40,145 bases of DNA, taken from assembly GCA_021776245.1 (NCBI GenBank), contig JAJFGF010000043.1:1-40145 (forward strand), read 5' to 3'. The position numbers and the translations under genes were made by a program. Below are positions 24,652 to 37,587 of this stretch, piece after piece (within the stretch, counting starts at the first letter, position 1; the number at the start of each line of letters is the position of its first letter). A model generated the notes under the pieces. The model ran no database searches. It was not told the DNA's origin and saw only the letters and a program-made list of their open reading frames with translations. This DNA is from Hyphococcus sp. (lineage in GTDB: Bacteria; Pseudomonadota; Alphaproteobacteria; Caulobacterales; Parvularculaceae).

Positions 24652-26904
24652 TTACATCCCGGTTGAGTGCGCGCCGTCCCAGCCATGGGGTACGCCGGTT
24701 TCCGACATCTTTTTGATACGTTCGTCGTAAATATCAAACAGCGCAATTTTTGCGCCAGGGGATTCTTTGGCCTTCTCAAGCATTTTTCGGGCGGTGACAA
24801 GGTCGCCTGAACGATAAGATGCGAGGAGTTGCCGATGAGTGTCATCAAGGGCGCGAAAACTCTTTGACGATTTGATGAACGGGTTGCCGACCAAGGCGTA
24901 GATGCTGAAAGGCCGCTCAGCATGGCGTGTACGGAGCTTGTCGAGTTCGAGATAGGCAAAATGGTGATGTGTTTCCTTGTAGACAATGTCATCGACAATC
25001 ATGGCCGGGCCGTAGATCTCAGATTGCATGCGCAAAAATGCGGCGCGATCAACAGCAGGGCCTATCGCGGAATACCGGTTATTGCGGCCATGGCCCATCG
25101 GGCCCGCGAAACAGGGGCCGGTCGCGACGCCGACAGCAAGGTGAATTTGCATGCCCCTTGTGCGGCTTGAATTTTCCAGATCCGCATTGATTTTATCCAT
25201 GCTTTCAATAAATCGCAGGGCTGCGGCGCAGCCAGCCTGGATATGATCAGCAAGCTCCATCGGAGCGTTGTAATAAGCGAAAATACGGCCGCCTTCCGCC
25301 TGATCCGCCGCGCCGCCGGTCTCAATAATCGTTTGCCGTAGATCAAGGCTTGCTGCTGCAAGCAGTTTTGTAACATCTCCGGGCAAGTTCTCCATGGTTT
25401 GAAGGTCTTCGTCGGCAAGACGAAGCTCGCAGGAAAGCACGGTGAGGTCGCGATAGACGCCGTCCAGCACTTCTTCTGCGCCGTCATCGCGGAGTTTTTT
25501 CATTGCGATCTCTGGAAGCGTGTCGTGAAAAGAGCCGCGCACTGAATCATCACGCAACACGCCGCCAATCGATTTGCCGCCAGCGACAGACAAGGCGCCG
25601 ATAAACATTGCAGCCGCTGACGGGAGCGGGTTTATCAAAAGGCCCGAAAGTGCAAACGCGGAAAAAGCAACGACCAAAAGCGCAAATGAGATGAACGCTG
25701 CAAACCCAACAGCATGCCAGAACTGTAAACGCTGCGCTGTCATGATCGCCGCGGCGCCGAACAACATCACCGCAATGGCTTCGGCATAGCCTGTCCATGT
25801 TGGGCGGCGCGGCGCCTCGCCAGCGATAATCTGCGCCGCGGCCAGCGCATGAAGCGCCGCCGGCGACATTGATCCCCGCGCTGTCGTTACGGAGGCTCCA
25901 AGTTCTCTGTCCAATCCGATCAAAATGACGGCGCCGCCAAGCTGACTGTTTGATCCTGCCCCGGCCAACACACGCGCGGCCGAGGTTGAGGGTATGGTGA
26001 GGTTTTTCGGTAGATAGAGGCGCATTGCACTCGTTTCGGACACGCGAAGGGCACGGTCTCCGATAGAGACGCTCTGAAGCGTGCGCCCCTGAGAATTTGC
26101 GGCGGACATCTTGATGGTGGTGGTAACTGTCTCCGCGCCGGCGGCGATGCGCGCGGCTTCGAGGCTTATTGCGGGCGCCGGTCTAGAGTCGAGCGACCAA
26201 ATTAACGGCGTGCGCCTGACGATGTTGTCCGCGTCCGTAGCCAGCGCGGCGACAACGGGTGGTGCGGCGCGGGCGAGTTCGGCGTTAAGGCCATATAGAT
26301 ATCTGGCTGCCGGCAAGGCAAGAAAATCGCCACCGTAATCATCGATACTGAGCCAGGCTGCGGAATTGACGTCAGTCCTCTGCAAGTCGCTTGTGCGGTT
26401 CGGGTTGAGCGGCGGCGTCAGGGAGACGCCAACGGCGCCCCTTATCTCGCTGAATGCGGTCGCGAGCCGTTCGTCAGTGCGCGGCAATAGCGCCAATTGT
26501 TGCTCCAGAGCGGCGTCGCGCGCACCTGACAGCCAGAATTCGCCGATGATCTCGGGCGATAGCGGATCGGGCGCATCGACCGGTTCGGTCAGGATAACGC
26601 CTTTGGCACCCGCGCTTGCCGCCGCCTCCACCAGTTCGGCGAGGACAGTGCGCGGCCACGGCCAGGGGCCGATCTGATCGACGCTTTCCCGGTCAATCAG
26701 AACCAGGTGAAAATCCGTTGATGCGTCGCTTGCCGCCGGTGAGATTCGCTGAAAATAGTCAAACAGAAGCTCTCGGGAGCGTGCGTCAGGCGATTGGGCC
26801 CCGGCCAGGGTTCCAAGGGCGATGGCCGCCAATGCGCCTGTGACAAGCAGGAGCGGCAGCGCAGAAAGCCATTGATATTGCGCCGTAAACACCGTCTTCG
26901 TCAC
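24652..26904 (-). CDS. CHASE2-domain receptor with degenerate class III nucleotide cyclase domain
   Basis: A 750-residue membrane receptor. One N-terminal TM lies at about 14-34 and a periplasmic CHASE2 sensor at about 45-350 (DFHLVLIDRESVDQIGPWPWPR; GGAVILIGLDRELGASVTT). Three membrane helices lie at about 371-445 and a cytoplasmic cyclase-like domain at about 484-642. In the cyclase domain key positions deviate. The first metal Asp is replaced (LTVLSCELRL, Glu493). The GD of the second metal site reads EGG (537-539). The transition-state Asn/Arg region reads IGPAVDRAAFL. It is therefore probably not an active adenylate or guanylate cyclase. GTG start with a good AGGAG. Confidence 0.85.
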   Translation of the reverse strand: MTKTVFTAQYQWLSALPLLLVTGALAAIALGTLAGAQSPDARSRELLFDYFQRISPAASDASTDFHLVLIDRESVDQIGPWPWPRTVLAELVEAAASAGAKGVILTEPVDAPDPLSPEIIGEFWLSGARDAALEQQLALLPRTDERLATAFSEIRGAVGVSLTPPLNPNRTSDLQRTDVNSAAWLSIDDYGGDFLALPAARYLYGLNAELARAAPPVVAALATDADNIVRRTPLIWSLDSRPAPAISLEAARIAAGAETVTTTIKMSAANSQGRTLQSVSIGDRALRVSETSAMRLYLPKNLTIPSTSAARVLAGAGSNSQLGGAVILIGLDRELGASVTTARGSMSPAALHALAAAQIIAGEAPRRPTWTGYAEAIAVMLFGAAAIMTAQRLQFWHAVGFAAFISFALLVVAFSAFALSGLLINPLPSAAAMFIGALSVAGGKSIGGVLRDDSVRGSFHDTLPEIAMKKLRDDGAEEVLDGVYRDLTVLSCELRLADEDLQTMENLPGDVTKLLAAASLDLRQTIIETGGAADQAEGGRIFAYYNAPMELADHIQAGCAAALRFIESMDKINADLENSSRTRGMQIHLAVGVATGPCFAGPMGHGRNNRYSAIGPAVDRAAFLRMQSEIYGPAMIVDDIVYKETHHHFAYLELDKLRTRHAERPFSIYALVGNPFIKSSKSFRALDDTHRQLLASYRSGDLVTARKMLEKAKESPGAKIALFDIYDERIKKMSETGVPHGWDGAHSTGM

Positions 26905-27066: not shown

Positions 27067-28203
27067 ATGGCGGATTCGGCCGCATATTTCGACACCGATA
27101 TCAAAGACGGAATCCTGCGATTGGTCGCTCGCGGAGACTGGCGCGCCCGCAGCGTCGGGCCGATCGATTCGCGTTTACGCGATTTCGCAGATGATTCGGT
27201 CGGGCGCGATCTGGTGATCGATATGGCCGGGGTCGATCGGCTCGATACGACCGGCGCGATGATGTTGCAGCGAACATTCTTTGCTTGCGACAGCCGCTCG
27301 AGCGCGTCGAAAATTGTCGGCGCTAACGACGCCCAGCGTGCGCTGATGGAGCAAATCCAACACCATTTGGCGCCGTGCCATATTGAGCCGTTCCACCGAA
27401 ATGCTTTTGTCGCGATGTTAGAGCGTCTCGGTCAGGGCGTCCTGGACGCCTATTATGCAGCACTGGAATTAATGAGTTTTATCGGGGCGACGCTGGCGAC
27501 CTTGTGGCGCGTGATGACGCGGCCGTCACATTTCCGCTGGACGTCAACTGTTCATCATATGGAAGAAGCCGGGCTTGATGCGATCCCAATTGTGGGCCTG
27601 ATGTCATTTTTGATTGGGGCAGTTGTTGCTTTTATGGGGGCGAAAATTCTGCGCCTTTTCAACGCCGACATATTCACGGTGGAATTGGTAGGCATTGCTG
27701 TTTTGCGCGAATTTGGCGTGTTGTTGTCGGCGATCCTCATTGCCGGCCGGTCGGGCAGCGCTTTTACCGCGCAAATCGGTTCGATGAAAATCAGAGAAGA
27801 GATCGACGCGATGCGCGTTTTGGGTCTCGACCCGATGGAGGTTTTGGTTTTGCCGCGGGTGATTGCACTGGTCATCATGTTGCCGGTTATCGCCTTTATT
27901 GCGGCGTTTTTAGGGGTTGTCGGCGGCGCCCTTGTCGCCGACTCGGTGATGGATATTTCTATCGCGCTTTTTGTCGCCAGATTTGAAGAAACAATTGTTA
28001 TCAATCATTTCTGGGCGGGAATAATAAAGGCGCCTTTCTTTGCGTTCGTGATCGCCGTCATCGGCTGTTTCCAGGGCATGGAAGTTGAGGGAAGCGCCGA
28101 GTCGCTTGGTCAACGCACAACACTTTCCGTCGTGCAGGCGCTGTTTCTGGTGATTGTGATCGATGCATTCTTTGCCATGTTCTATTTGGAGATCGATTTT
28201 TGA
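27067..28203 (+). CDS. mlaE: MlaE-type lipid ABC transporter permease with N-terminal STAS domain
   Basis: The permease of an MCE-type system moving phospholipids between the membranes. Of its 378 residues, 8-105 form a STAS domain (VIDMAGVDRLDTTGAMMLQR), the job done by the separate MlaB protein in E. coli. Residues about 135-378 form the MlaE domain, with FNADIFTVELVGIAVLREFGVLLSAILIAGRSGSAFTAQIG and KIREEIDAMRVLGLDPMEVLVLPR as signatures. It is the first gene of an overlapping four-gene operon. The ribosome-binding site is weak (AAGAAAG). Confidence 0.93.
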   Translation: MADSAAYFDTDIKDGILRLVARGDWRARSVGPIDSRLRDFADDSVGRDLVIDMAGVDRLDTTGAMMLQRTFFACDSRSSASKIVGANDAQRALMEQIQHHLAPCHIEPFHRNAFVAMLERLGQGVLDAYYAALELMSFIGATLATLWRVMTRPSHFRWTSTVHHMEEAGLDAIPIVGLMSFLIGAVVAFMGAKILRLFNADIFTVELVGIAVLREFGVLLSAILIAGRSGSAFTAQIGSMKIREEIDAMRVLGLDPMEVLVLPRVIALVIMLPVIAFIAAFLGVVGGALVADSVMDISIALFVARFEETIVINHFWAGIIKAPFFAFVIAVIGCFQGMEVEGSAESLGQRTTLSVVQALFLVIVIDAFFAMFYLEIDF

Positions 28204-28988
28204 CCGCGCTCGCACAGTCCAAGAATCACGTCATCGAAGTGCAGGGGCTCACTACGCAGTTCGGTGATGTCGTTATTCATGATGATCTGAATATCAATGT
28301 CCATGACGGCGAAATCCTGGGCGTTGTCGGCGGATCGGGCACCGGAAAATCAGTGCTTATGAGGGCGATTATAGGCCTGAAACGCCCCAGCCGTGGCGTA
28401 GTGCGTGTTTTCGGCGAGGATTTTTACAATGTGAGCAAAGAGGTCCGGCTTTCTATTGAACGCAGATGGGGCGTATTGTTTCAAGGGGGCGCACTGTTCT
28501 CGTCGCTGACGGTTGCGCAAAATATCATGGCGCCGATCCGTGAACATCTCAAAATTGAAGAGGACCTCGCCAAAGACATGGCGGCGCTCAAAATTTCTAT
28601 GGTTGGCCTGGCGGCTGAAGCCGGCGCCAAATACCCGTCGGAATTATCCGGAGGTATGAAAAAACGAGCAGGTCTTGCCCGCGCCCTCGCGCTTGATCCG
28701 GAATTGGTGTTTCTCGACGAGCCAACGGCCGGCCTCGACCCTATTGGCGCCGCGAGATTTGATGAATTGATCAATTATCTCAAGGAATCCTTAGGGTTAA
28801 CCGTGTTTATGGTAACCCATGATCTCGATACGCTGCACGCGACATGTGACCGTGTTGCAGTGCTGGCTGAAAAAAGAGTGATTGCATGCGGGCCGCTGGA
28901 TGAAGTGCGGCGAACGGACCACCCCTGGGTGCAGGAATATTTCTCAGGGCCACGAGGAAGAGCGGCGTTGGCGGCGAAAGCAAGCTAG
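28200..28988 (+). CDS. mlaF: MlaF-type lipid ABC transporter ATPase
   Basis: The 262-residue ATP-binding subunit that powers the MCE lipid transporter. Walker A is GGSGTGKSV (about residues 44-52). The Q-loop is VLFQGGALFSSLTVAQNI, the ABC signature LSGGMKKRAGLARAL, and Walker B LVFLDEPTAGLDP; the H-loop is VTHDLDTL. It begins with TTG in a TTGA overlap with the permease stop, so it is translationally coupled. mlaD follows after 22 bases. Confidence 0.94.
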   Translation: MTALAQSKNHVIEVQGLTTQFGDVVIHDDLNINVHDGEILGVVGGSGTGKSVLMRAIIGLKRPSRGVVRVFGEDFYNVSKEVRLSIERRWGVLFQGGALFSSLTVAQNIMAPIREHLKIEEDLAKDMAALKISMVGLAAEAGAKYPSELSGGMKKRAGLARALALDPELVFLDEPTAGLDPIGAARFDELINYLKESLGLTVFMVTHDLDTLHATCDRVAVLAEKRVIACGPLDEVRRTDHPWVQEYFSGPRGRAALAAKAS

Positions 28989-29010
28989 GAAACGGCAAGA
29001 GTATTTCTGA

Positions 29011-29895
29011 ATGGAAACGCGGGCACATTATGTGGTGATCGGCAGCGTCGTGATGATCGTCGTTGCCGCGGCGTTCCTGTTTATTACCTGGAAAAGTCAG
29101 GAGGGGACCGATGTTGATGTATATGACATCATCTTCACTGAACGCGTCTCCGGTTTATCGGTAGGCGCTGCAGTGCGCTTTAACGGGATTCAGAAAGGAG
29201 AGGTCGATACGCTGTCGATCGACCCTGACAATCCTTCAATTGTGATTGCGCGCGTTCGTGTCGATAAAGACACGCCTGTTAAAACTGACACCAAAGCCGA
29301 ACTTGAGCTTGTGGGCTTCACCGGACTGGCGATTATTCAGTTTGTCGGCGGCAGCCCCGACGCCCCATTGCTGAAAGACGTTAGCGAGGATCGCGTACCG
29401 AAAATCCCTGCAGACACATCGGGTTTTGCCGCCTTCCTGGAAGGTTCCGGCGATGTACTGGCGCGCGCCAGTCTCCTTCTCTCCGATGACAACATAAACA
29501 ACTTTGCGAGCATTATTGAGAACGTTGAGATTATGACCGGCGCGTTTGCGGAAAACGAAAACGATATCATTGCGCTGCTCGATAACGCCCAATCGATTAG
29601 CGCCGATCTTGCTGCGATGACGTCGAAACTTGCAGAGGCCGGCGCCGTGGACGAGGTTGAATCCATTTTAAACGAATCGCACATGCTGGTCACTGATTTG
29701 CGTGGACTTGTTGACGAGAACCGTGCGTCGATTCGCTTTTTTGCAGATCAGGGACTTGGGCAGGTTGCGCCGGCGCTCGCCGAAGCAAGGCGATTGATGC
29801 AAACTCTTGATTACATGCTGCGGGAGATTGATCGTGATCCGCAGGCCTATTTCCTCGGCGAAAATGCGCCCGAATATGGAGCGGCGGAAGAATGA
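29011..29895 (+). CDS. mlaD: MlaD-type MCE-domain lipid-binding protein
   Basis: A 294-residue inner-membrane-anchored protein forming the periplasmic lipid-binding ring. An N-terminal helix lies at about 9-27 (VVIGSVVMIVVAAAFLFITW). The MCE domain covers about 38-115 (IFTERVSGLSVGAAVRFNGIQKGEVDTLSID ... GFTGLAIIQFVGG). A helical C-terminal part of about 150 residues is longer than in E. coli MlaD and resembles MCE proteins with alpha-helical tubes. Its stop overlaps the lipoprotein gene start (ATGA). Confidence 0.93.
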   Translation: METRAHYVVIGSVVMIVVAAAFLFITWKSQEGTDVDVYDIIFTERVSGLSVGAAVRFNGIQKGEVDTLSIDPDNPSIVIARVRVDKDTPVKTDTKAELELVGFTGLAIIQFVGGSPDAPLLKDVSEDRVPKIPADTSGFAAFLEGSGDVLARASLLLSDDNINNFASIIENVEIMTGAFAENENDIIALLDNAQSISADLAAMTSKLAEAGAVDEVESILNESHMLVTDLRGLVDENRASIRFFADQGLGQVAPALAEARRLMQTLDYMLREIDRDPQAYFLGENAPEYGAAEE

Positions 29896-30518
29896 TCAAG
29901 GCCACTATCCATTGGACTTTGTCGATTGCTGTTTTTCTGGCGGCGGGTTGCGTATCGCTGCTGCCGGAAACCGCGCCGCCAAAACCGCGTTACCATATCA
30001 TTGCTGCCGATGCGGTCACGCTTCAAGGGCCTTCTGTTGACTGGTCCCTCGTCGTCGCCGATCCGCGCACCACGCGAATTTATGACAGCGTTCGGATCGC
30101 CGTTTCAACAGAGCCAGGGAAAATTGAATATTTCGCGGGCGGCGAATGGGCCGATCGCGCGCCGCGCCTTTTTCAAACAGCGCTTGTTCAAACCTTTGAA
30201 GACTCCGGGCGCATTCTCGCAGTCGGCGACCGTGCGGCGCTTCCTGTTGGTGATGTTGTGCTGCAAATTGACATCCGCGCGCTGCATCTCGATGTGCGAT
30301 CACGAAGCCCTGTTTCAAGCGTGACGGTGTACACCCGCCTTACGGACGGCAAAGGGTCAATTTATGCGGCCCACCTGTTCAGCGCCTCTGAGCCGGCGCG
30401 TTCGGAACGTGCTGACGACGTTGTCGCGGCAATGAATACGGTGCTGAACGACGTCATCGCAGACATAGTCACCTGGACATATGATGAAGGTGAAAAAGCC
30501 GTCCGCGCCAAATCCTGA
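29892..30518 (+). CDS. ABC-type transport auxiliary lipoprotein (PqiC-like)
   Basis: A 208-residue lipoprotein with signal peptide and lipobox LAAGC at about residue 20, then an ABC_trans_aux/DUF330 fold. PRYHIIAADAV, IYDSVRIAVSTEPGKIEYFAGGEWADRAPRLFQTALVQTFEDSG and the later DVVLQIDIRALHLD strand match that family. Such proteins serve as outer-membrane partners of MCE transporters (PqiC type). It completes the operon; no MlaA or MlaC gene is adjacent, so the lipid path may run through this lipoprotein. Confidence 0.9.
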   Translation: MIKATIHWTLSIAVFLAAGCVSLLPETAPPKPRYHIIAADAVTLQGPSVDWSLVVADPRTTRIYDSVRIAVSTEPGKIEYFAGGEWADRAPRLFQTALVQTFEDSGRILAVGDRAALPVGDVVLQIDIRALHLDVRSRSPVSSVTVYTRLTDGKGSIYAAHLFSASEPARSERADDVVAAMNTVLNDVIADIVTWTYDEGEKAVRAKS

Positions 30519-30581: not shown

Positions 30582-32981
30582 TTACGCAAAATACCCGACT
30601 GTTGCGCCGATCAATAAATAAACCCGCCCCAGGGGCGAGCTTAGATATTCCTCCAGCTCTTCATCAGCTGTCTCAGAGGTCGTTGCGTCTTCGAGCAGCC
30701 TTTCAAATCCCTGTAGATAGTTGTGAATGCTGATCTCGAAATCCTTATTGCGGCCCGATTCCGTTCGTATGCGCCGTTTCACGTCTGCTTCATTCAGCCT
30801 AAGCAAGCGATTTGCAAATACATTGCGGTCGCCGCGCTCGAACCGCTCCTTTAGCGCCGGCGGCGGATCGCCATAAAGTTTAATCTCAAGATCATGCGTG
30901 AAGAGCTGCAGCCGGGAAATAATTTTGATTGCATTTTCTTCAGCGCTGCGCGCTTCGGTCGGGGATTTCTTTGTTGCGGGACCCAGCTCAAGCGGCTCGG
31001 CGTCGTCGGCCGCATCGAGAATCTCACGCCAGGAAACGTCGCCTTTGTGACGGCGAGTTTCTTCCTCGGGCGCGGCCGCTTTCGTCACCGGCGGCTCTTT
31101 GCGTCGAGCGCTACTGCCGCGCGGACGGCGTTCCGCAATATCGCGCGCCAATTCGTCGAGACGCTCGCCGCCATTGGCCGCCGGGGCTTTTTTTACCGGG
31201 TCTGGCTTGGTCCGGCTCGCCTCGACCAGATTAAGCGTTGGCTGTGGTGCGGTCTGAGCAGTTGGCGCTTTTTTCTTTGCGTCGTCTTTTTCGGCGGGTC
31301 CTTTTTTCAATGCGTCTTCGGCCTTGCGCACGGTTTTTGTGTCTGGGGCGCGTTTTTGTTCCGCTGCCGGTGTTTTAGCGCGTTTGCGCTCGGCCACCTG
31401 CCGATCAGCCTCGGCCTGCATGCCGATTTGCGCCTGGGTTAGGCGGGCGGCTGCTTCCTGTTCGCTGAGCTGTGCTTCGGCAAGGCGAGACAGCCGGTCA
31501 GTCTGTGAAGCGATGGCGTCTGCGAGGCGGTTCGCCCGGCTTCGCTGGTCTTCAATCAGCGTTTCAAGGCGAGCATTTTCCTTTTCCAGTGCGGTGCGCG
31601 CTTCGACTAGCGCCCGTGCGCGCTGTTCGACCTGTCCGGCATGGGCCTTTGAGTATTTTGCGGCCTCCCCGGCGGCTTTACGTGCGCTTTCAGTGACAGC
31701 GGAAATATCTGCAGACGCCTTCGCCACGACTTCACCGCTATGGCGGGCCGCTTCTGAAACATCGGTCGCCGCCTTTGTGACTTTTGCGGCATCGGCGGCG
31801 GCGGCGTCCACCGCCTGCTTTGTTGCTTCATGAACCTTTGACGTTTCACGCACAGTCGCTTCCACAGCCGCCTCGGAGATACGTGCTGTTTCTTCCCTGG
31901 TTTTTTCAATGGCGCCATCGGCCGCAGCGCGAGCTGCCTGCGCTGTTTTGGCGACCGATGCGACGACATTCGCAGATTCGCGGGCGGCGGCCTCTGCTGC
32001 AGCTTCTGCTGATGTGTTAATGCGCCCTGTCGCCTCCATTGTTTGCGCAGCGGCGTCATTAATTGATCCAGCTGATGCGCGCATGGTCTCGTCGGTTTCA
32101 CGCAAGGCGTCGCGCAATGCCTCAAAACTCGACAACGCATTGGCCGCAGCGCCTTCAAGCCGCGTCAGGCGTTCGTCAAATTCCTGCTCCGCACGCACGG
32201 AAACCGCATCGGCGGACTGGAGCGATTCAATACTGTTTTTTGCTTTTTCGGCGATCGCTGCGGCAAATGAATCTGCCTGCGTGTTGAGGTTTTCTGTCAT
32301 TTCCATCAGTCGCGCGCGTTCATCTGCGACGCGCGTCACGGCGCCGGTCGCTTTGTGTTCGATCGCCACACCGGCGACTTCAATCGCTTCAACATGCTGG
32401 CGGATCATCGCCTCAATCGTTGCAAGCCGCGTCAGAGCGCCGTCAAGTCCTTCGTTCAAATCATGTAGATGGCCCTGTACGACGGCGCCGACAGTGCTGA
32501 CATTTTGTGCTGCGGTGAGATCCGGCGTGACAAAGCGTTGCGCAGCCTCCGCAATTGATTCCGCTGCGCTCATCATCGTCAGGGAGCGCGATAGCATATA
32601 GCCCATCAAACCGATAAGCACCGGAATGATAATCGCAAAAACCAAAGAGCTCGATTGATAGGCCTTCCACCAGATCCAGCTGTCCAATGATCCATTAAGC
32701 TCCAGATGAGCAATCCAGCTGCCTAAAGGCATGCCGACGAGGAAAACACAGGGCAGCAAAAGCGCAGTCAGGCGAGAAGCCAGCCATACCTGGCGGCTCA
32801 TAGCGTTCCAGCGTTGCTCATTTCCAAAAACCGGCCCAACGGCGTATTCGCCGCCCGCATGGGAGGTTTCACGCGATTTTGCTTCGACAATGCCTTTGAA
32901 TCGCATGCGCGGCGCCTCGTTGGCGTCGCCGCCCGGGCTGGCGCTGGCTGCCGTCTCAAATTGGTCGCGATCTTCGCTCAC
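30582..32981 (-). CDS. TipN-like membrane-anchored coiled-coil protein
   Basis: About 799 residues from GTG 32981, where AGGGA lies 8 bases upstream; the frame is open to ATG 33116, but that extension looks non-coding. Two membrane helices (numbered from GTG 32981) lie near 68-88 (RLTALLLPCVFLVGMPLGSW) and 108-130. A very long Ala/Glu/Lys-rich coiled coil follows to about 500, and then a basic Pro/Lys/Ala linker. A compact C-terminal domain of about 135 residues ends the protein (AIKIISRLQLFTHDLEIKLYG, RLLRLNEADVKRRI, FERLLEDA, LSSPLGRVYLLIG). This architecture recalls the Caulobacter polarity factor TipN. No motif proves it, so the name is a hypothesis. The gene is divergent from the ion channel. 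Confidence 0.7.
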   Translation of the reverse strand: MSEDRDQFETAASASPGGDANEAPRMRFKGIVEAKSRETSHAGGEYAVGPVFGNEQRWNAMSRQVWLASRLTALLLPCVFLVGMPLGSWIAHLELNGSLDSWIWWKAYQSSSLVFAIIIPVLIGLMGYMLSRSLTMMSAAESIAEAAQRFVTPDLTAAQNVSTVGAVVQGHLHDLNEGLDGALTRLATIEAMIRQHVEAIEVAGVAIEHKATGAVTRVADERARLMEMTENLNTQADSFAAAIAEKAKNSIESLQSADAVSVRAEQEFDERLTRLEGAAANALSSFEALRDALRETDETMRASAGSINDAAAQTMEATGRINTSAEAAAEAAARESANVVASVAKTAQAARAAADGAIEKTREETARISEAAVEATVRETSKVHEATKQAVDAAAADAAKVTKAATDVSEAARHSGEVVAKASADISAVTESARKAAGEAAKYSKAHAGQVEQRARALVEARTALEKENARLETLIEDQRSRANRLADAIASQTDRLSRLAEAQLSEQEAAARLTQAQIGMQAEADRQVAERKRAKTPAAEQKRAPDTKTVRKAEDALKKGPAEKDDAKKKAPTAQTAPQPTLNLVEASRTKPDPVKKAPAANGGERLDELARDIAERRPRGSSARRKEPPVTKAAAPEEETRRHKGDVSWREILDAADDAEPLELGPATKKSPTEARSAEENAIKIISRLQLFTHDLEIKLYGDPPPALKERFERGDRNVFANRLLRLNEADVKRRIRTESGRNKDFEISIHNYLQGFERLLEDATTSETADEELEEYLSSPLGRVYLLIGATVGYFA

Positions 32982-33183
32982 GCAGGCATCCCTGTCCTGA
33001 AAGGCTTTCGCATAGCGGATTTTTAAAGGCGCGCCAATTGATTCGGGCTTTCTTTCGGCCCTGACCGGGATCAAACTTTCGGTAAAGTTTTGGCGCAAAC
33101 AACTGGCGTGCGGCATTCTTTCAGGCCAAGAATCCCTCTAGCAGAGGGCGGATTGAAATTTCCCCTCTGGCGGAGAGCGCCCT

Positions 33184-33990
33184 ATGACCGCCGCCCCTCA
33201 ATCGGCAGGCCCAACGCGATTGCAACGCTTTGTTGAAGAACCATGGTTTCAGGGCCTGGTGTTTGGGTTGATTATCGCCAATGCGCTGATCCTGGGCGCG
33301 GAGACTTTTGATGAAATCAACGCCGCAACCGGAACGTGGCTGGGCGTTGCCGACCGTCTGATCATCTACGCTTTTTTGGCGGAGATCGGCCTGCGCATCA
33401 CGGCCTACCGGGCCGATTTTTTTAAAAACGGCTGGAACCTGTTTGATTTCGTGGTGATCTTGATATCACTTTTGGCGGCGACGTCGGGGCTCGGGGCATT
33501 GCGGGCGTTCCGGGTGTTGCGGATTTTGCGTGTTATCACGGTCATTCCGCGTATGCGGGTTGTCGTTTCAGCCTTGCTTGACGCAATTCCCGGCATTGCC
33601 TCAGTCGGCGTGGTGCTGGCATTGATCATTTATGTTTTTGCGGTGATTGGCGCCAGTCTTTATGGCGCCGCACACCCGGCGCTTTTTGGTGATGTATTCC
33701 AGGCGATGTATACGCTTTTTCAGATCATGACGCTGGAAGGCTGGCCTGACATAGCCGCGACTGTAAAAGAGACCCATCCGCGATCATGGGCCTTTTTTCT
33801 TTCCTTTGTTCTGATTGCGACATTCACGATGCTCAACCTGTTTGTGGCAATAGTCGTGCGGGTGGTGGAGGAAGATTCCGACACATTGTTCGAAGATCTT
33901 TTGAAAAATCAGCAGGTGTTGCGCGAGGATGTGTCCGAACTCCGGCGCGACGTCGCCGAAATAGCACGAAATCTGGCTGGAAAACGCTAG
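33184..33990 (+). CDS. Voltage-gated cation channel of the bacterial Nav/Cav type
   Basis: A 268-residue single-domain, six-helix channel that would assemble as a tetramer. The S4 voltage sensor carries Arg107, 110, 113 and 116 (ALRAFRVLRILR). S2 has Glu67 and S3 has NLFDF (Asp88). The pore segment has the filter T183-L-E-G-W-P-D189. The S6 helix is FFLSFVLIATFTMLNLFVAIVV. A C-terminal coiled coil (residues about 235-265, heptad-like LLKNQQVLREDVSELRRDVAEI) fits tetramerisation. Gly after Glu and Asp at the seventh position are unlike the classical TLESW sodium filter, so Ca2+ permeation is plausible. Confidence 0.9.
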   Translation: MTAAPQSAGPTRLQRFVEEPWFQGLVFGLIIANALILGAETFDEINAATGTWLGVADRLIIYAFLAEIGLRITAYRADFFKNGWNLFDFVVILISLLAATSGLGALRAFRVLRILRVITVIPRMRVVVSALLDAIPGIASVGVVLALIIYVFAVIGASLYGAAHPALFGDVFQAMYTLFQIMTLEGWPDIAATVKETHPRSWAFFLSFVLIATFTMLNLFVAIVVRVVEEDSDTLFEDLLKNQQVLREDVSELRRDVAEIARNLAGKR

Positions 33991-36041: not shown

Positions 36042-36382
36042 TGGCGAAACAATACCGGCCCTATGATGAGTATCTCAAGCGCGCCCAAACCCTGCTGAGC
36101 GCTTATAGGGAAAATATTGTTTTCAAGCCCGTGTTCGGGGCGGCGGCGGCATATAGCGACGGCGCGATCTTCATGACCGTTGGCATGTTTGGCGTTGCGC
36201 TTAAATTACCCGTGGAACAATCTGCGCATTTGATGGCGGAAAAAGACGGTGCTCCGCTGAAATATTTCGAAAAAGGTTATGTCAAAAAGGGTTATGTGGT
36301 TCTTTCCGATGCGACGCTGGCGGACGCCAAAGCCCTCAGGGCATTGATTGTGCAAAGCATGGAATATTGTCGGCAGTCTTAA
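36041..36382 (+). CDS. TfoX N-terminal-domain protein
   Basis: A 113-residue protein starting at ATG 36041, overlapping the kinase stop by one base. It resembles the TfoX/Sxy N-terminal domain: PVFGAAAAYSDGAIFMTVGMFGVALKLP near residues 28-55 and YFEKGYVKKGYVVLSDATL near 70-90. In gammaproteobacteria TfoX promotes competence gene expression, but stand-alone N-terminal-domain proteins elsewhere are of unknown function. Its last four bases overlap the end of the convergent antiporter gene. Confidence 0.78.
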   Translation: MAKQYRPYDEYLKRAQTLLSAYRENIVFKPVFGAAAAYSDGAIFMTVGMFGVALKLPVEQSAHLMAEKDGAPLKYFEKGYVKKGYVVLSDATLADAKALRALIVQSMEYCRQS

Positions 36383-37587
36383 TTTGCGAATAATGCGCGC
36401 TTCTTCGCTACGGCAGTTTCTTTGAGGAAGGTTTTGACCAGCGGCCGGGCGGTAAGCCGCGCCGCGATAACGCCAAAGGCGATGGCAAGGGCGCCGACGG
36501 TAAGAACGGCGTCCTGGGCGACAATTGACGTTGCGTCGAATAGTGAAATCAAAAATAGCGCGGATGCCGCTCCCGGGGCGCCGCCAAACCAGGCAAGGAA
36601 CATCTGACTTTCTTTTGGCAGCGTGGTTTTCTTCAGTGAGGCGAGCCTTGGTCCGGCGCGCATCACGGTAACGGCGGCGAGGGCAAATACGATTGACAAA
36701 AGATCCGCCTGCAGGATTCTCGGGGCCAGCAAAACGCCAAACGCGAAATAGGCAATCGGCGCCACATTGCGCTCGATAAGCCGTCGCAGGCGCACACGGG
36801 TAGTGACCAGCGAGTTTGACTGTTCGCCCCAAAGGAGGCCTGCGGCTGCCGCCGCGATTACTGGATGTGCGCCGAGAATTGGCGCCAGCAGGAACGCGGT
36901 CGCGCCCGCCAAAATTGGCAGAAAGCCGGTTTTCTGCGCAGTTTTGAATCGGTTGCCGAAAACCGCCGCCGCGAGGCCAAGGCATCCGCCGAGGGCGAAA
37001 CCGATCAAGAGGCCTCTGCTCGCTTCAAAGAGCGGCGTCACTAATGGCATTCCCTGGGGCGCGGCACTGGCGGTCGCCTCAAGCAAAATGGCGACTGGCA
37101 GGCCAAGAGCAAGAATTGCCGCGCTCTCAAGCCGGACGGCCGCCTTGATAGTGGCGTGCGCTGGCGCATCGGTCACCGCCCGCCGGTCGAACGCGGCGCC
37201 ATTAAGGGTCAGCGCGCCGGCCAGCAGCATTGCAGCGCTCAGGGGCAGTTGCGGTACAAGAATAAAAGCGGCGAGTCCGCAAACGATCAAAAACAGCGGG
37301 GCGCCGCCAATCGTTAGCCGGAAAGACGCGGGGCAGACACTGGCCAGACGTGAGACGCGGAATTGGCATGCTGCGGCAAAAGCCAACGCTGCAAGCAATG
37401 CGTCGGCGCCTGCGGCAACCCATTCCGACGGCATAAAGGGGCCGCCGAAGACGCGGTAAACCAACGATGCGCCAGCCCCGGCAGCCAGCATCAACGCCGG
37501 CGCGCGTGCGGCGGCGCTGACGATTTTCGCCTTGGTCAGAATCCAGAATGTAACGGCGCATAAAGCCGCCGCGATTACAAAAGCCAT
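36379..37587 (-). CDS. CPA-type cation:proton antiporter-like membrane protein, degenerate
   Basis: A 402-residue protein with about 12 membrane helices laid out like a Na+/H+ exchanger core. GALTLNGAAFDRRAV (residues 124-138) occupies the place of the TDP-containing helix, and AVRLESAAILALGLPVAIL (150-168) that of the ES-x-x-ND helix. WFGGAPGAASALFLISL (near 340) resembles the late G-R-G segment. The ion-binding Asp residues (TDP, ND) are not seen, and the C-terminal regulatory domain is absent. It may have lost transport activity or changed substrate. There is a long AT-rich gap upstream. Confidence 0.65.
   Translation of the reverse strand: MAFVIAAALCAVTFWILTKAKIVSAAARAPALMLAAGAGASLVYRVFGGPFMPSEWVAAGADALLAALAFAAACQFRVSRLASVCPASFRLTIGGAPLFLIVCGLAAFILVPQLPLSAAMLLAGALTLNGAAFDRRAVTDAPAHATIKAAVRLESAAILALGLPVAILLEATASAAPQGMPLVTPLFEASRGLLIGFALGGCLGLAAAVFGNRFKTAQKTGFLPILAGATAFLLAPILGAHPVIAAAAAGLLWGEQSNSLVTTRVRLRRLIERNVAPIAYFAFGVLLAPRILQADLLSIVFALAAVTVMRAGPRLASLKKTTLPKESQMFLAWFGGAPGAASALFLISLFDATSIVAQDAVLTVGALAIAFGVIAARLTARPLVKTFLKETAVAKKRALFAN

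Follow-up and report, generated by a model that had tools for sequence, protein, structure and literature searches.

A TLEGWPD voltage-gated channel in the Parvularculaceae, a candidate native calcium channel of NavAb-like sequence

CavMr of Meiothermus ruber is the one native bacterial calcium channel characterised so far, and a 2026 paper describes it as the only identified prokaryotic Cav (PMC12919392). This single-domain voltage-gated channel carries the filter TLEGWVD, in which the Gly at position 4 was reported to be the main determinant of selectivity: a PCa/PNa of 218 is given for the wild type, 12 for G4S and 8 for G4D (PMC7041947). The other filter mutants reported there include D7M, with a ratio of 144, and V6T, with a ratio of 40 and loss of monovalent selectivity. 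The same study gives a PCa/PNa of 0.31 for NavPp, which became calcium-preferring with D4G (about 41) and reached 215 with the CavMr filter, and it reports that two of four related channels gave no current (PMC7041947). CavMr also has an extension of its outer loop (L6) with a disulphide (PMC10120453). For NavAb, the values reported in PMC12919392 are a PCa/PNa below 0.01 and a PLi/PNa of 2.18 for S178G, which introduces Gly4 alone, and an approximately tenfold preference for Ca2+ in the three measurable constructs carrying M181A, S178G-M181A included; this preference was present even without Gly4, and the mutants were unselective among monovalents. A 2023 review counts a one-domain channel as calcium-selective when Gly follows the acidic residue of its filter.

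The channel and its filter

The window, which is the whole stretch of 40,145 nucleotides analysed here, contains an open reading frame at 33184..33990 on the forward strand that encodes a single-domain voltage-gated cation channel of 268 residues. Residues 20-230 match Pfam Ion_trans (E 2.4e-46), and the protein has the features of the BacNav superfamily, namely six transmembrane segments of the Ion_trans type, an S4 with four arginines, a pore built of P1 helix, filter and P2 helix, and a length within about 260-300 residues. A chance or spurious frame was rejected on the Pfam match, the orthologues in the genus and the conserved filter. Only one other protein of the host genome matches Ion_trans, a potassium-type channel with the filter TVGYGD (locus L002, 1417-2625) whose C-terminal extension resembles, by eye, a cyclic nucleotide binding region.

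The earlier note on this DNA, made from its letters alone, had described an alphaproteobacterial channel with an intact S4, and both statements hold: the host belongs to the Parvularculaceae, and the four S4 arginines R107, R110, R113 and R116 (33502..33531, +) stand three residues apart and align, by way of an Arcobacter relative (L195), with NavAb R99, R102, R105 and R108. In NavAb these four are gating arginines of S4. In the same alignment F64, E67 and D88 are the kept counterparts of NavAb F56, E59 and D80.

Secondary structure assigned by DSSP on an AlphaFold2 model places the P1 pore helix at residues 171-182 (33694..33729, +) and the P2 helix at residues 187-197 (33742..33774, +). Between P1 and P2 the filter TLEGWPD, read from the translation and the genus alignment, occupies residues 183-189, exactly where it had been placed (33730..33750, +). 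P2 begins at W187 in the model, such that Asp189 lies in its first turn, at the outer mouth. S6 and a long C-terminal extension (residues 201-267; 33784..33984, +) are modelled as a single helix, and by analogy with NavAb and NavMs the C-terminal part is likely a tetrameric coiled coil.

The pairing of Gly4 with Asp7 for which the channel was singled out is confirmed, and the numbering of the Asp depends on the comparison. Aligned with repeat I of human Cav3 or with channels of the TLEDWTD type, the filter is gapless and Asp189 is position 7, as had been claimed; against NavAb-like channels MAFFT opens a gap that falls at Met181, and Asp189 then faces Gly182. To compare spacing, residues were counted from the filter Thr to a mark in S6 taken as the presumable counterpart of NaChBac G229 and CavMr G240. 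The count is 39 in this channel, against 40 in TLESWSM channels, and 39 is shared with the seven TLEDWTD channels measured. Position 6 is occupied by Pro188, a residue missing from the earlier account and found also in repeat III of human Cav2.2 (TGEGWP). Among the open-access papers searched, none contained TLEGWPD, nor TLEGWAD, TLEGWAE, TLEGWPE or LEGWPD; TLEGWVD occurred in two.

Distribution and ancestry of the filter types

Orthologues at 64% identity or more are present in 22 of 28 genomes of the genus, the host's own counted, and any channel match in 24 of 28. All 22 orthologues carry TLEGWPD, and residues 182-191 are identical throughout; because the filter also stands at the filter position of its homologues, chance is not an issue. 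In pairwise comparisons with eight relatives dN/dS lies between 0.09 and 0.20, and dS exceeds 1 in every pair. The orthologue of one genome (G017) carries an internal stop codon. Four genus genomes encode a TLESWSM channel, which in two of them is the sole type (G020 and G021) and in two others stands beside TLEGWPD (G019, loci L022 and L027; G022, loci L020 and L028). Two filter types in one genome would be expected if their jobs differ, which favours a calcium role for TLEGWPD, and G019 and G022 offer natural pairs for a direct comparison of Ca2+ and Na+ selectivity. A match is present in 40 of the 62 genomes of the family, and the 42 sequences divide into TLEGWPD (27), TLEGWAE (4), TLEGWRE (3), TLEGWRD (3), TLEGWAD (1) and TLESWSM (4).

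A survey of 386 alphaproteobacterial genomes found matches in 116, at 128 places including the host channel. All 127 other filters were read: 28 have Gly-Trp at positions 4-5, 75 are TLESW and 24 are of other kinds. The 28 comprise 18 TLEGW filters, nine with Asp3 and one doubtful match, RINGW. An Asp or Glu at position 7 or 8 accompanies TLEGW in 18 of 18 cases, none with Met7, whereas TLESW has an acid there in none of 75 and Met7 in 71, the remaining four carrying Thr, His, His and Val. With the Asp3 filters and RINGW included, the acid is present in 25 of the 28 Gly4 filters (the exceptions are L306, L307 and L311). Outside the survey, a Sulfuritalea metagenome-assembled genome encodes TLEGWAM followed by Glu8 (L185), so that Met7 and Gly4 can co-occur, a point against the calcium reading. 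A contig scan that required TLE in the filter returned at least 80 loci and was not used for frequencies.

Other filter types were met alongside these. Eight loci (L148-L150, L153-L155, L301 and L305) from small alphaproteobacterial genomes of 1.2-1.6 Mb read TLSSWE(Q/T/N), with Ser in place of the high-field Glu3 and an acid at position 6. Outside the class, in a survey of the phylum, loci L238-L260 of family f182 carry TLEDWTD channels, a filter identical to that of NavPp and to a published ancestral prediction; the sole TLESWTS among the 23 f182 sequences fetched is L243.

Trees were built from 79 rows, and from 68 after the removal of 11 that were distant or long-branched; the rows were hand-picked for filter diversity and include other classes and phyla, such that counts of switches do not represent a random sample. 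On the 68-row tree, built without the filter columns, placing the 41 Gly4 rows in one clade is rejected (p 2.3e-5). A single clade of all 18 TLESW rows is rejected as well, at p 4.4e-5, or at 0.012 once L182 is removed. Both filter types therefore recur across this tree of hand-picked rows. Parsimony counts ten changes of filter type on those rows. Independent pairs on well-supported branches number two (p 0.5), or three on the 68-row tree (p 0.25), all in one direction and too few to weigh; the clade tests are the sounder evidence.

By overall similarity the channel is nearer to NavAb-like channels than to TLEDWTD channels: NavMs scores 198 bits and NavAb about 182, and the TLEDWTD channel L141 has 34% identity. 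In the 68-row tree, too, the channel falls on the NavAb side, and a branch with 100/100 support separates it from nine rows of the TLEDWTD type. These nine were picked as proxies for NavPp and CavMr by their NavPp-like filter, eight being EDWTD and one L243. A tree constrained to group the channel's family with them is nonetheless not rejected (AU p 0.374); on a quick tree the same constraint gives 0.566, the constrained tree even scoring 5.4 log units better than the quick tree itself. Two TFEDWTD rows (L264 and L266), both later dropped, joined L153 in a group next to the other TLEDWTD rows rather than within them.

A conserved slot beside a large divergent gene

The channel gene stands back to back with a large gene (30582..33116, -) whose product of 844 residues is probably, by eye, a coiled coil. 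The divergent arrangement described in the earlier note is correct; its label of a polarity-type protein finds no support in Pfam or NCBIfam, neither of which matches the product. The last ~130 residues of this protein are its best conserved part in distant members. At two loci (L016 and L029) the channel seems to be fused to a long N-terminal part, but this part was taken for an open frame read antisense across the coiled-coil gene, and the fusion was rejected. Beyond the large gene lies a lipid transport operon of the Mla type (27067-30518, +), made up of MlaE with an N-terminal STAS domain, an ATPase, MlaD and an auxiliary lipoprotein, and then a CHASE2 protein with a weak C-terminal guanylate cyclase match (24652-26904, -), which recurs at this position in many loci of the family. 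Past the channel in the opposite direction comes a Na+/H+ exchanger gene (36379..37587, -; PF00999, 9.9e-15) accompanied by an FAD oxidoreductase; between channel and exchanger lie genes for an acyl-CoA dehydrogenase and a kinase-like protein, both variably present among relatives.

In a comparison that sought the 14 genes of the window alone, such that other genes may intervene, the large gene lies on the same side of the channel and in the same orientation in 20 of 20 family loci, and the exchanger lies on the other side in 19 (the exception is L282). At four loci of other families (L159, L161, L173 and L177) none of these neighbours surrounds the channel. Ten genomes chosen for having no orthologue in the channel search all keep the large gene, with the channel missing from the slot, and seven keep the exchanger. 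The large gene occurs in 57 of the 62 genomes of the family, which makes the slot look old and the channel an occasional occupant of it. Functional coupling between the two is unsupported, the neighbour being so widespread and staying in the ten genomes examined that lack the channel.

Viral, plasmid and mobile origins of the channel were considered and rejected. Although 151 pattern matches were found in viral contigs, none encodes a relative; the 39 plasmid records matched are all below 60% identity; and the gene occupies a place conserved across the family.

Ion selectivity and comparison with known channels

Four copies of the gene product would assemble into a voltage-gated cation channel, a homotetramer in which depolarisation would move the four-arginine S4 and open the S6 bundle. 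Ions would then pass a ring of four Glu185. At the mouth, Gly186 would remove the Ser side chain, and the channel lacks the Met that helps NavAb to exclude divalents, the first turn of P2 bearing Asp189 in its stead. Ca2+ would thereby be admitted, and probably preferred over Na+. The combination of Gly4 and a missing Met181 predicts Ca2+ permeation whichever scaffold is taken as the reference, and its strength may depend on Pro6, which lies outside the published mutants cited.

It is probable, if by no great measure, that the protein is a native Ca2+-permeable voltage-gated channel that probably prefers Ca2+. A calcium-selective channel is likely, judging from its filter and from the behaviour of characterised relatives, but its selectivity may fall short of the CavMr grade. 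The filter is that of CavMr except at position 6; Gly4 has the effects described for CavMr and NavPp, and Ca2+ preference appears in the NavAb M181A constructs; the 2023 review would class such a channel as calcium-selective; and both the acid that accompanies Gly4 (18 of 18 TLEGW filters, against 0 of 75 TLESW) and the conservation of filter and sensor in the genus point the same way. Weighing against it are the lack of any paper on TLEGWPD among those searched, the exclusion of Ca2+ by NavAb S178G, the calcium preference of M181A without Gly4 and its loss of monovalent selectivity, the lowered selectivity of CavMr V6T, which is altered at the very position where this channel has Pro, the missing loop extension, and the silence of two of the four relatives in the CavMr study.

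The strongest competitor, a real possibility that is nonetheless less probable than a calcium channel, is a poorly selective cation channel with a modest preference for Ca2+, in which Gly4 and the missing Met181 would make the filter wider but create no true calcium site. Such behaviour is what the M181A mutants display (PMC12919392), CavMr V6T is reported to act similarly (PMC7041947), and the overall sequence here is NavAb-like; the identity of all seven filter residues across the genus and the regular co-occurrence of Gly4 and an acid suggest instead a tuned filter. A Na+ channel blocked by external Ca2+, whose mouth acids hold the ion and do not pass it, would resemble NavPp, which likewise has an acid at position 7 and whose ratio is 0.31, but NavPp has Asp4, and exchanging that residue for Gly made it calcium-preferring (41.4; PMC7041947), which leaves this account improbable. 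Least credible is a monovalent channel favouring Li+ and Na+, in which Gly4 within a NavAb-type pore excludes Ca2+: S178G does precisely this (PMC12919392), yet that mutant retains the Met181 that is absent here, and adding M181A admits Ca2+.

A wider proposal builds on the preferred reading of a calcium-permeable channel and is offered tentatively, with a probability clearly lower than that of the reading itself. Native voltage-gated calcium channels would be common in Alphaproteobacteria and of repeated origin, coupled changes turning a sodium pore (Ser4, Met7) into a calcium pore (Gly4, acid at 7 or 8) or the reverse; some species would keep both, and TLEGWPD, its scaffold NavAb-like and free of the CavMr loop, would be the main form of the Parvularculaceae. 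If the channel does select calcium, it would be a second prokaryotic Cav and, being NavAb-like and without the loop, would reveal the least that a homotetrameric calcium filter requires. A recurrent two-site switch would also allow ideas on how selectivity for Ca2+ or Na+ arose to be put to the test.

How the channel relates to each of the described systems differs with the feature compared. Its filter is closest to that of CavMr, down to the residue numbers 183-189, with Gly4 and an acid at position 7 in both and Pro in place of Val at position 6 as the sole difference; in CavMr this Val is required for full selectivity. By the numbering of the CavMr paper 57 residues separate the filter Thr from G240, against 39 here, and residues 183-222 contain no Cys; the channel, compared by published filter and numbering, thus appears to be without the L6 extension and its disulphide. 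The predicted fold and the sensor residues are those of NavAb and NavMs, which among single-domain proteins gave the best full-length matches in both sequence and structure searches (at most 41-42% identity in Foldseek), with the proviso that structural matches carry no ion information. A canonical NavAb-like sodium filter, TLESW with Met7 as in TLESWSM, is not what is found, the channel having Gly4, Pro6 and an acid near position 7 and lacking Met181. The top Foldseek match, 5klb, is CavAb, an engineered NavAb with the filter TLDDWSD; the likeness to it proposed at the outset is real with respect to Asp7, but CavAb owes its selectivity to charge added at positions 3, 4 and 7 where the channel has Glu3 and Gly4, and the comparison is the weaker one because CavMr already has Asp7 and does without it, D7M still being strongly calcium-selective. 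NavPp and other TLEDWTD channels ('AnclNav' by filter) share the 39-residue spacing and the acid at position 7 and differ in carrying Asp4. Repeat I of eukaryotic Cav3 (TLEGWVD or TLEGWVE; TLEGWVD in human Cav3.1 and Cav3.2) aligns to the filter without a gap, and whereas a eukaryotic Cav joins four different repeats in one chain, the bacterial channel would assemble from four identical subunits.
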